Shown here: positions 2,551-29,407 of the stretch, in pieces
Layout: each line of letters opens with the position of its first letter
Numbering within the stretch: position 1 is the stretch's first letter
Origin: a virus
IMG/VR virus record: IMGVR_UViG_3300025647_000182
Span: 1 to 29,672 of that record
Length of the DNA stretch: 29,672 bases
Strand: one strand, 5' to 3'
The notes under the pieces: model-generated
Seen by the model: the letters and a program-made list of their open reading frames with translations, nothing else
Told to the model about the DNA's origin: nothing
The model's database searches: none
Program-made: the position numbers and the translations under genes

Positions 2551-3513
2551 TTATTTAAAGATATCTTGCCAGTTACCGGTAGTGCTCGCGCGAGAATACT
2601 CGGTGGCTCGGTTTTCAAAGAAATTAGCGTGTTCTACGCCGTTTAACATATAGTCTAGCCACTCTAAAGGATTTTTCTCGCTCCCAAAAATCTTTTTCAA
2701 GCCTAGCCCTAATAGTCTTCTGTCTGCAATATAACGAATATAACCTTTTACCTCTTCTGGAGTTAGATTAGGTACATCTGCTCCTTCAAAACAAAGGTCA
2801 ATAAACGCGTCTTCTAGCTCTACTGTACGCTCCGCTGCACAATAGATTTGATACTTTAAGTCATCATTCCATAATTCTGGGTTTTCTTGAATAAAAGTTC
2901 TAAATAAACGACTCATGCCTTCTACATGTAAACTCTCATCCCGGACAGACCAAGTTACAATCTGACCCATTCCCTTCATTAAGTTATGTCGTGGAAAATT
3001 TAATAGAATTGCAAAGCTACTAAATAATTGCACGCCTTCAGTAAAGCCAGAGTATATAGCCATAGTTTTAGCTATATCCATCTTAGTTCCCATACCAAAG
3101 TTACTTAAGTATTCATGCTTGTCCAGCATTTCTTTATGTTCAAAGAACTTCTGGTACTCATCTTCACTGAAACCAAGAGTTTCAAGTAACAATGAGTATG
3201 CTTCTTGATGCACTGCTTCCATTGCTGCAAAAGCAGAGAGCATCATTCTTACTTCAGGTTGCTTGAATGTAGGTAAATAATGAGTAGCATAGCCACAACA
3301 TACATCAACGTCAGCCTGTGTAAAAAACCGAAAAATATTAGCAATCAATTTCTTGTTGCCAATAGTCATTTTCTCTCTATAATCCTTTAGGTCGTCTGCA
3401 AGATTTACCTCATCGGGCAGCCAATGGGCGTGTTGTTGTTGCTTATAGTGTTCAAAAGCCCAAGGATAGTTAAACGGTTTATAGTATGCTCTTTCTTCTA
3501 GTAAGTTACTCAT
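2551..3513 (-). CDS. nrdB: Ribonucleotide reductase class Ia, small (R2) subunit
   Basis: Supplies the tyrosyl radical that NrdA uses to reduce ribonucleoside diphosphates to deoxyribonucleotides. All expected ligands of the di-iron site are visible: D68, E99, H102 (EAVHQEAY), E159, E193 and H196 (RDESLHVEG). The radical tyrosine is Y106, seven residues after E99, the same spacing as E. coli E115/Y122. At 320 residues it is somewhat shorter than the E. coli protein (~375) but complete at both ends. Its ATG (3511-3513) lies inside the last codons of the upstream HNH gene (8 base overlap), so it is translationally coupled to an intruding gene. Confidence 0.96.
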   Translation of the reverse strand: MSNLLEERAYYKPFNYPWAFEHYKQQQHAHWLPDEVNLADDLKDYREKMTIGNKKLIANIFRFFTQADVDVCCGYATHYLPTFKQPEVRMMLSAFAAMEAVHQEAYSLLLETLGFSEDEYQKFFEHKEMLDKHEYLSNFGMGTKMDIAKTMAIYSGFTEGVQLFSSFAILLNFPRHNLMKGMGQIVTWSVRDESLHVEGMSRLFRTFIQENPELWNDDLKYQIYCAAERTVELEDAFIDLCFEGADVPNLTPEEVKGYIRYIADRRLLGLGLKKIFGSEKNPLEWLDYMLNGVEHANFFENRATEYSRASTTGNWQDIFK

Positions 3514-4117
3514 AATGTTTATTACTCTTTTTAAAATTCTCTTGGGCAGTTAATATTTGCCAGTTTTGGTGATAGTGCAATCCGCTAACGTTATTACCTT
3601 GAAGAGGAACAATATGGTCAATATGATACTGTATACCAAACATATCTTTTCGTAGCATATTTATAGCATACATCTCTTCTAATATAATATGGTCTAGCTC
3701 TGAAAACCACTTAGGAGTAGCTTTTAACTTAGCAGCCCTTCTATTAGTAGCCCTAGCAGCGTAGGATTCTTTATTCTTAGTATAGTGTGCTTTGTGTTTT
3801 AATCTTATTCTATCTCTATTCTCCGTATAATAAGAAGACTCACACTCTCTACAGCAATTTCTTAATCCATCAAGTTTTTTAGTACTTAGGTTAAACTCTG
3901 ATATAGCTTTTAAAGTATTACACCGACGACACTTTTTTTCTCCATTTATAACTGGTAGTGACTTATTATTCGGAGTTAGGCCTAGGAACCCATACTCTTT
4001 TATTCTATTAGCTATAGTCCTGACGGAGCAATTAAAGTGTAAAGCTAGTTCTGGCCTTGATACGCCTTTCTGAACTAAGCATTTTAACTGCTCTTTATCT
4101 ATCGCTACCCTTGACAT
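3506..4117 (-). CDS. HNH homing endonuclease inserted between nrdA and nrdB
   Basis: A 203-residue free-standing HNH nuclease. It has an N-terminal HTH (RPELALHFNCSVRTIANRIKE, about 21-41) and a zinc finger formed by C63, C66 and the C88/C89-C92 pair. The C-terminal HNH/His-Me finger has H165, D167, H168 (YHIDHIVPL), N185 and N194, and ends KKSNKH. The ATG at 4115-4117 overlaps the last four codons and stop of nrdA by 13 bases, and the end overlaps nrdB by 8 bases. The element therefore fits between two coupled genes without breaking either. HNH genes placed this way spread by cutting uninvaded relatives. Expression depends on the nrd operon. Confidence 0.92.
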   Translation of the reverse strand: MSRVAIDKEQLKCLVQKGVSRPELALHFNCSVRTIANRIKEYGFLGLTPNNKSLPVINGEKKCRRCNTLKAISEFNLSTKKLDGLRNCCRECESSYYTENRDRIRLKHKAHYTKNKESYAARATNRRAAKLKATPKWFSELDHIILEEMYAINMLRKDMFGIQYHIDHIVPLQGNNVSGLHYHQNWQILTAQENFKKSNKHYE

Positions 4118-28223: not shown

Positions 28224-28373
28224 CTACTCCTCAGAATCATCTAAAGTTATTACTCCTGTACTTACCAGGTGTGCAATTGTTGCTTCTATTCCTTCTTTTT
28301 TGCCTATATTATAGCAGGTAATCCCGCAGCCTATCAAGGTAAAAATAAATATAGCGTAAACTTGTATTTCCAT
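28224..28373 (-). CDS. Small membrane-anchored phage protein (49 aa)
   Basis: ATG 28371-28373 to TAG 28224-28226, 49 residues, with AGGA seven bases upstream. Residues 4-20 (QVYAIFIFTLIGCGITC) form one membrane span. Then comes a conserved-looking cytoplasmic tail, YNIGKKEGIEATIAHLVSTGVITLDD. Short proteins with this membrane-anchor plus 'G-x-x-x-G-I-E-x-T-I-x-x-L' tail are common in marine phages, function unknown. It is the first gene of the lysis operon below promoters P8 and P9. Confidence 0.72.
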   Translation of the reverse strand: MEIQVYAIFIFTLIGCGITCYNIGKKEGIEATIAHLVSTGVITLDDSEE

Positions 28374-28528: not shown

Positions 28529-28557
28529 TTGACAGAACACTCAAACTCTTATATAAT
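28529..28557 (+). promoter_or_regulatory. Sigma70 promoter P10 (rightward)
   Basis: -35 TTGACA (28529-28534), 17 base spacer, -10 TATAAT (28552-28557): full consensus with AAAAATATTTC upstream. Transcription would begin about 28563-28566, at or next to the ATG of the first gene. Confidence 0.9.
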
Positions 28558-28563
28558 ACGCAT

Positions 28564-28734
28564 ATGAAAAAAGATAAAAAACAAGGTTGGACAGACCGTG
28601 AGAATAAAGTTCTTACGCTGATGTACTACCACGCCTCTATAGAAGAGCTTCTTGAGTTGCTTCCAAAAAGAGTAGAGCATGATATTCATAAACAGGTAGT
28701 ACACCTAAGAAAACGAGGACAGAGATTCAAATGA
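28564..28734 (+). CDS. Small Myb/SANT-like HTH protein, possibly leaderless
   Basis: 56 residues (ATG 28564-28566, TGA 28732-28734). A basic start (MKKDKKQ) is followed by GWTDRENKVLTLMYYHASIEELLELLPKR and HDIHKQVVHLRKRGQRFK, the three-helix Myb/SANT plan (W, then a conserved Leu pattern, 'LP.R', a recognition helix and basic tail). The ATG is only 6 bases from the -10 box, so the mRNA would begin at or next to it, or an inner ATG at 28621 is used. It overlaps the bS21 gene by 4 bases (ATGA). It is a likely early regulator. Confidence 0.8.
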   Translation: MKKDKKQGWTDRENKVLTLMYYHASIEELLELLPKRVEHDIHKQVVHLRKRGQRFK

Positions 28735-28919
28735 AAGTAACCGTAAGAGGAACAAATGTAGAAGGCGCATTGCGTCTATTTAAACGTAAGACAATGGACA
28801 ATGGCATACTGAATGCCGTTCGAGAAAAAGAATTCTTTGAGAAGAAATCTGCAAAGAAACAACGAAAGAAAGCTGCTGCGCGTATGCGAGAACTAAAGCG
28901 GCAAGAAACTAAATCTTGA
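28731..28919 (+). CDS. rpsU: Ribosomal protein bS21 (phage-encoded)
   Basis: 62 residues. MKVTVRGTNVEGALRLFKRKT then NAVREKEFFEKKSAKKQRKKAAARM lines up along most of its length with bacterial bS21 (ALRRFKR, VRRREFYEKP and the basic C-terminal helix). bS21 sits at the 30S neck near the anti-Shine-Dalgarno region and affects initiation. Phage bS21 is known in some marine and giant phages and can enter host ribosomes. It is translated in overlap (ATGA) with an HTH gene under P10, so it is likely made early. Its stop TGA is inside the -35 of P11. Confidence 0.93.
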   Translation: MKVTVRGTNVEGALRLFKRKTMDNGILNAVREKEFFEKKSAKKQRKKAAARMRELKRQETKS

Positions 28920-28944
28920 CTTAGGGGCTAAAATTCCGTATAAT
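28916..28944 (+). promoter_or_regulatory. Sigma70 promoter P11 (rightward)
   Basis: -35 TTGACT (28916-28921), 17 base spacer containing GCTAAAATT, -10 TATAAT (28939-28944). The -35 contains the bS21 stop. An ideal AAGGAGG (28957-28963) precedes the next ATG. Confidence 0.84.
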
Positions 28945-28969
28945 ACTTTCATAATAAAGGAGGTTTTAG

Positions 28970-29407
28970 ATGGTAGTTTACTCAATAAAAGGCAAATCCT
29001 CAAAGAAGTTTGATAAATATATTCAAAAGTGTCTTCGTCATTTGTTACCCAACTCAGTAGAGCATGATGTAGAGGTTTTAATACGCTTCAAAAAACTTCT
29101 CAAAAATGAAAACACTGGGCAAGCAAACGGCGACACTAATGAAGTCTTAATCGACGTAAGTAGATTTTATGAGCTTGAAGACGGCAGCTTGCAAAAGCTG
29201 TCTCTTGACGAAATAGCACAAAATCTAGCACATGAGTTAGTGCATGCAAAGCAATTTATACTTGAAGAAATTAACTCTATAGACTATATGTGGAGAAAGA
29301 CTGACTATTCCCAGTGCCCCTATTTGGAACAACCTTGGGAAATAGAAGCATACCATAGAGAAGTATACCTGTTTAAGAAATTTTGGAAAACTACAAAGGA
29401 GAAGTAA
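28970..29407 (+). CDS. Zinc metallopeptidase-like protein (HExxH)
   Basis: 145 residues with H88-E89-x-x-H92 (LAHELVHAKQF) and a likely third zinc ligand E126 in PWEIEAYHREV, the plan of SprT/ImmA-type zincin peptidases. An N-terminal beta/helix region precedes it. There is no signal peptide. Phage proteins of this kind may cut a host regulator or process a phage protein; the target is unknown. It has its own promoter P11 and an optimal ribosome binding site, so it should be strongly made. It is followed closely by a truncated gene. Confidence 0.82.
   Translation: MVVYSIKGKSSKKFDKYIQKCLRHLLPNSVEHDVEVLIRFKKLLKNENTGQANGDTNEVLIDVSRFYELEDGSLQKLSLDEIAQNLAHELVHAKQFILEEINSIDYMWRKTDYSQCPYLEQPWEIEAYHREVYLFKKFWKTTKEK

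Follow-up and report, generated by a model that had tools for sequence, protein, structure and literature searches.

Organization of the operon

In the window, that is, the whole stretch of 29,672 nucleotides that was analysed, a short operon begins with a gene for an HTH protein and ends with one for ribosomal protein bS21. The gene that follows has its own promoter. The features of this region are listed below.

28529-28557 (+): promoter P1, TTGACA (28529-28534), 17-nt spacer, TATAAT (28552-28557); 12 of 12 consensus positions
28558-28564 (+): 6-nt gap from the -10 box to the ATG, whose A (28564) is the transcription start predicted from promoter geometry
28564-28734 (+): HTH (Myb/GcrA/D5-type) protein, 56 aa, first gene of the operon; PHROG_323, AF2
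28731-28734 (+): ATGA stop/start overlap from the HTH gene to bS21, read from the sequence
28731-28919 (+): bS21; PF01165, TIGR00030, PHROG_21469; groups with related phages' bS21 in a single clade
28916-28944 (+): promoter P2, TTGACT-17-TATAAT, -35 box overlapping the stop codon of bS21; promoter of the next gene, which has a normal leader
28957-28963 (+): Shine-Dalgarno sequence AAGGAGG of the gene after bS21
28970-29407 (+): putative zinc metalloprotease, 145 aa, HELVH followed by PWEIEA; assigned from motifs and relatives

The genes around the operon include thyX and those for an endolysin, a holin-like protein, a D5-like regulator, a DnaB-like helicase and PolA. bS21 lies among T5-like replication genes, and the phage context claimed in an earlier note on this DNA is supported. 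No Rfam families or tRNAs were found in the window. Two further ORFs should be mentioned, both on the minus strand. The one at 28224-28373 is divergent from the bS21 operon; it has 49 residues with one membrane segment (MEIQVYAIFIFTLIGCGITCYNIGKKEG...) and a leadered promoter at 28430-28402, and is conserved in G004, G005, G009, G010 and G011. The other (3506-4117, 203 aa) is located between two ribonucleotide-reductase-like genes and resembles an HNH homing endonuclease by eye.

Identification of the bS21 protein

The 62-residue product of the second gene matched PF01165 (Ribosomal_S21) at 7.1e-15 with 54.9 bits (cut-off 27) and TIGR00030, an NCBIfam equivalog model, at 1e-15 with 57.3 bits (cut-off 28.95), the latter over model positions 1-58 of 58. 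It also matched PHROG_21469 "ribosomal protein S21" (1.1e-11), and the credible phmmer matches in the PDB were all bS21 or mitochondrial or plastid S21 chains (best 5.6e-8). These matches bear out the identification of this protein as bS21 in the earlier note. The protein contains 20 Lys/Arg against 7 Asp/Glu residues, with a net charge of about +13. When modelled alone by AF2, it formed one long helix (residues 10-61) with modest confidence (pLDDT 76, pTM 0.33), and the single Foldseek match of this model (E 6) was a 66-residue chain from an E. coli disome structure. bS21 is a two-helix protein whose full folding off the ribosome is not expected.

The single long helix would also fit a bS21 homologue with a role away from the ribosome, for instance one in which it binds RNA as a basic partner of the HTH protein, and the bS21 of a Bacillota species is reported in the OLE RNP (PMC12054373). 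The full-length match to the equivalog model argues against such a role, as does the ribosome entry demonstrated for another phage's bS21, and we regard it as very improbable.

The dN/dS value of bS21 was 0.05, indicating purifying selection, and that of the HTH gene was 0.08 against its nearest relative. Wherever the ratio could be computed, it was 0.05-0.25 for the two genes, so that synonymous changes per site exceeded replacements. Bacterial contamination or a chance ORF, for which nothing speaks except the short length of the gene, has a negligible probability: dN/dS is far under 1, and phage genes flank bS21 both in the window and across dozens of contigs, one of them a complete 77.9-kb genome. 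This synteny refutes it. As judged from these comparisons, the bS21 is genuine and has been carried for a long time by a clade of uncultivated T5-like phages.

HTH gene and its coupling to bS21

All 23 aligned members of the HTH family matched PHROG_323 "D5-like transcriptional regulator" (best 2.5e-11). The window copy alone was below the Pfam threshold and reached PHROG_323 only at E 0.04. Weaker links were to Myb in some members (0.002) and to GcrA in one (1.5e-4). AF2 gave a confident three-helix bundle (pLDDT 90). Foldseek returned many HTH proteins for this model, none of them decisive and none below E 0.68; the DNA-binding domain of GcrA was among them, with TM values of 0.61/0.68 but an E-value of 3. 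The gene had previously been called Myb-like. Its HTH fold stands, as seen from AF2 and PHROG_323, but the Myb match itself is weak and confined to some members. The protein groups with D5-like regulators and probably binds DNA, possibly its own promoter P1 or other phage promoters. Derivation of the HTH gene from a duplicated domain of the D5 encoded in the window was rejected, since pairwise profile comparison gave a weak result (probability 3.5%).

The ATGA overlap and the full-consensus promoter described in the earlier note are both present in the sequence. The overlap strongly suggests translational coupling from the HTH gene to bS21. This direct contact holds in the window; among the relatives it occurs only in the lineage of the window and in a few further ones.

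Promoter P1 and the predicted leaderless start

P1 is highly conserved in its boxes. Over 54 distinct HTH loci they read TTGAC(A/T) and TATAAT, with TATACT in one, and distinct relatives show 11-12 of 12 consensus positions with a 17-nt spacer throughout. At these 54 loci, 6 nt separated the -10 box from the ATG in 43 cases, 7 nt in 7, 8 nt in 3 and 5 nt in 1. The letters between the two boxes and those just before the ATG vary: the mean identity of 44 different 17-nt spacers was 40%, and the 6-nt discriminators took 34 forms among 55. This means that the distance is conserved and not the sequence.

RNA polymerase typically starts about 7 nt past the -10 box. Such a start falls on the A of the HTH ATG, which leaves no space for a Shine-Dalgarno sequence. 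This geometry strongly suggests that the operon mRNA is leaderless, with its 5' end predicted to lie no more than about two bases from the HTH AUG. The initial 20 nt of the transcript are A-rich, and they were unstructured in three of the four transcripts folded.

In the sub-clade of the window (11 contigs), only 3 other genes were predicted to be leaderless, and 111 promoters had leaders of 15-59 nt. A chance origin of the spacing was rejected, because the HTH promoter was leaderless in 11 of 11 cases and a suitable ATG ORF occurs at 2.0% of random positions. Restriction of leaderless starts to the bS21 operon nearly holds for this sub-clade; it fails for three divergent members, G003, G006 and G100, which have 1 to 7 further predicted leaderless genes per contig. 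With the HTH gene counted, these three (L099-L103, L112-L113 and L279-L283) have 7, 2 and 8 leaderless consensus promoters, respectively, and the genes concerned include LigA-like and PHROG_624-like ones. The presence of several such genes means that a leaderless start is no sign of bS21 itself. From the promoter predictions, the leaderless route is a trait of the clade, with the bS21 operon as its most constant user.

Conservation of the operon

A first scan gave 11 loci, in all of which the HTH gene precedes bS21. In a wider bS21 scan, in which 80 loci were kept, about half had the HTH gene and the remainder belonged to other phage groups. Scanning with an alignment of HTH proteins retrieved 54 distinct ones, and bS21 was located downstream in 52 of their loci. 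The pairing of the two genes proposed in the earlier note is thus a stable one. The two distinct loci without bS21 (L212 and L251) retain the HTH gene and the protease gene; bS21 is therefore dispensable to the rest, and a strict pair of bS21 and protease is argued against.

Most relatives have a third ORF of 22-31 codons between the HTH gene and bS21, joined by ATGA or GTGA overlaps. It encodes a microprotein with a single membrane helix and a short, mostly acidic tail, and is absent in the window, L003, L012/L196 and L090. This microprotein and the lack of leader room after P1 are additions to the earlier note.

Pairs of consensus promoters in tandem, separated by about 90-120 bp, were observed elsewhere in the relatives (G005:1952/1862 (-), G009:22893/22986 (+), G010:2020/1930 (-) and G006:26194/26315 (+)), with single counterparts in G003, G004 and G112. 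Their discriminators are GC-rich (CGGCGC) and resemble those of rRNA promoters. Several are followed by a conserved AATCGTCGTCGTACTACTACTGGCGC stretch with no clear ORF, and these sites perhaps encode small RNAs.

Gene downstream of bS21

In contrast to the leaderless HTH gene, the gene after bS21 has a leader with a 25-nt gap and AAGGAGG. The arrangement of P2 is identical in L003. Among the loci compared, the product has 61 distinct relatives. HExxH is present in 60 of them, the remaining one being interrupted by the contig end, and both HExxH and PWExEA are near invariant. Members matched Peptidase_M91 (3.8e-4), BSP (7e-4) and SprT-like (0.009) in Pfam, the window copy alone being weak, and no credible relative was found in the PDB. 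The protein is probably a zinc metalloprotease, as suggested by its motifs, outside any confident curated family. Its gene is usually located 3' of bS21. McNutt et al. have speculated that phages with bS21 may encode a protease against host bS21 (PMC9976891), and the metalloprotease is a candidate, and no more than that, for such an enzyme.

Phage clade, descent and host

PolA, TerL, the helicase and D5 are closest to those of Demerecviridae. The identity is at best about 44% for the window's PolA, about 30% for its DnaB-like helicase and at best about 50% for TerL of the complete relative G003. In relatives with the same operon whose contigs reach the polymerase gene, PolA is 68-89% identical to that of the window, which places the operon carriers in one uncultivated clade. 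G003 is a complete unit of 77,894 bp, whose assembly has an end repeat of 4,911 bp. Since this size is below the >100 kb of cultivated Demerecviridae, we refer to a T5-like clade and not to a member of that family.

Five cultivated Demerecviridae (pVp-1, AhSzq-1, My1, Thalassa and PSTCR5; 109-129 kb) share PolA, TerL, D5 and the DnaB-like helicase with the clade. Neither bS21 nor the HTH gene was found in these five, and each has at most one P1-type promoter-ATG site. A tblastn search of cultivated phages with the window bS21 gave no match. The E. coli bS21 query (identical to the L124 sequence) retrieved isolates with bS21, with no T5-like isolate among the matches listed.

A tree of phage and host bS21, called for in the earlier note as a check, was built from 134 proteins and 70 columns and contains many open forks. 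Nearly all clade members fall on one branch (support 99/90), which is separate from the sampled alpha-, beta/gammaproteobacterial, Bacteroidota and other phage bS21. L036/L041 and L077 lie outside it on long branches. The simplest reading of this tree is a single old acquisition of bS21. Host assignment from bS21 was dropped, because the branch joins no sampled bacterial group in this tree. A 4-kb clade contig in a Bacteroidota MAG (L093, DNHN01000013.1; also G002) had pointed to a Bacteroidota host, and this was rejected. The contig is likely mis-binned, since the MAG has its own normal Bacteroidota-type bS21 (L177).

Possible role of the phage bS21

Of the ribosomal proteins encoded by viruses, bS21 is the most frequent. 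In this clade the operon is small and strongly conserved, and it ties bS21 firmly to a promoter, a start codon and a probable DNA-binding protein. We propose that the host sigma-70 RNA polymerase would transcribe the operon from P1, and that a 70S ribosome would initiate on the 5'-terminal AUG of the HTH gene, where no Shine-Dalgarno sequence is involved. Translation would then pass to bS21 through the stop/start overlap. The phage bS21 would enter host 30S subunits, in which bS21 is loosely bound and exchangeable. There it would lie beside the mRNA/anti-Shine-Dalgarno helix, and initiation might be altered in favour of phage production.

The steps of this model differ in strength. The consensus promoter gives moderate reason to expect early expression. 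Incorporation into ribosomes is most likely, by analogy with the pelagiphage bS21, which was incorporated into E. coli 70S ribosomes (PMC6375957). A bias of initiation toward phage mRNAs is a published hypothesis and is put forward here only tentatively. The model as a whole agrees with the retention of bS21 in nearly all HTH loci, its single well-supported branch, purifying selection and the promoter geometry. Several points count against it. The pelagiphage protein reduced GFP synthesis in vitro with E. coli ribosomes to about 5% (PMC6375957), and might thus be a poison. The late expression of bS21 in large phages infecting Bacteroidetes, its best-studied carriers (PMC9723584), argues by analogy against early timing. 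bS21 is missing in two loci that keep the HTH gene and the protease. On balance, we consider the model slightly more probable than not.

The same GFP result would suit a phage bS21 that shuts off the host by poisoning initiation on its leadered mRNAs, with leaderless or specially led phage mRNAs escaping; the predicted leaderless operon would be one of these. In the window's sub-clade, however, ordinary Shine-Dalgarno leaders precede most genes, and these would be equally affected, and the in vitro effect might be mere incompatibility with E. coli. This explanation seems distinctly unlikely. Somewhat less unlikely, though still not probable, is that the phage bS21 keeps host ribosomes complete after shut-off of host rpsU and leaves mRNA preference unchanged. 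bS21 joins the ribosome late in assembly and can be exchanged (PMC9976891, PMC6375957), and the phage copy has a normal core (Pfam, TIGR00030) under strong purifying selection, all of which would fit replenishment. Its own branch, apart from the sampled Pseudomonadota and Bacteroidota bS21, does not, as the protein has not stayed similar to any of the host copies sampled.

In the model of altered initiation, the predicted leaderless start links bS21 to a translation route that survives the loss of bS21 and other 30S proteins. Ribosomes induced by kasugamycin, from which bS21 and other proteins are missing, translate only leaderless mRNAs (Kaberdina 2009, cited in PMC7069363). Ribosomes poor in bS21 would still read leaderless mRNA, so a leaderless head might suit a gene needed during a shortage of bS21. 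An extended circuit can be imagined, in which the metalloprotease strips host bS21, bS21-free ribosomes, which would use leadered mRNAs poorly, still read the leaderless head and so supply the HTH protein and phage bS21, and the latter refills them, so that leadered phage mRNAs are favoured and leaderless output falls. We regard this circuit as a long shot. If it were true, the leaderless head would be a switch permitting synthesis of the replacement subunit while ribosomes lack bS21. The operon makes the function of a phage bS21 open to testing by means of short synthetic mRNAs and a single purified protein.

Comparison with known systems

Phage-encoded bS21 has been reported previously (Mizuno et al. 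2019, PMC6375957; Chen et al. 2022, PMC9723584). The bS21 of Pelagibacter phage HTVC008M (PMC6375957) is likewise full-length and of similar size. This phage belongs to Kyanoviridae, its bS21 gene follows CobS, and its bS21 joined alphaproteobacterial sequences in the tree; unlike for the window clade, an HTH partner or a leaderless operon is not reported in that paper. In the large phages of Bacteroidetes, bS21 is also conserved and has been proposed to redirect initiation, but it lies among structural genes in genomes of 293-331 kb (PMC9723584). In the window clade it is located near lysis and replication genes behind a consensus sigma-70 promoter, and the complete relative is about 78 kb. 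In L184 (Vibrio phage 2.275.O, a jumbo phage), an annotated bS21 (RpsU3) lies in a translation-gene cluster, between IF-3 and an L7/L12/ClpS-like gene.

The rpsU gene of Flavobacterium johnsoniae is autoregulated: ribosomes without bS21 favour bS21 mRNA (McNutt et al. 2023, PMC9976891). That gene has an extra-strong Shine-Dalgarno sequence, whereas the head gene of the window operon has no leader, and feedback is only conjectural here. Leaderless initiation by 70S ribosomes on a 5'-terminal AUG is known from lambda cI mRNA (PMC9031893). cI is a phage DNA-binding protein made from such an AUG, as is predicted for the HTH protein. Lambda cI is a prophage repressor, whereas the window belongs to a T5-like phage, and the cI operon is not known to contain a ribosomal protein.

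The word leaderless is absent from PMC6375957 and PMC9723584, neither of which describes the promoter of a phage bS21, and a partial survey of the literature on leaderless mRNAs with S21 or phages gave no report of such an arrangement. Provisionally, therefore, what is new is the setting of bS21 in a conserved, predicted leaderless operon of an uncultivated T5-like clade; the phage bS21 gene alone is known.
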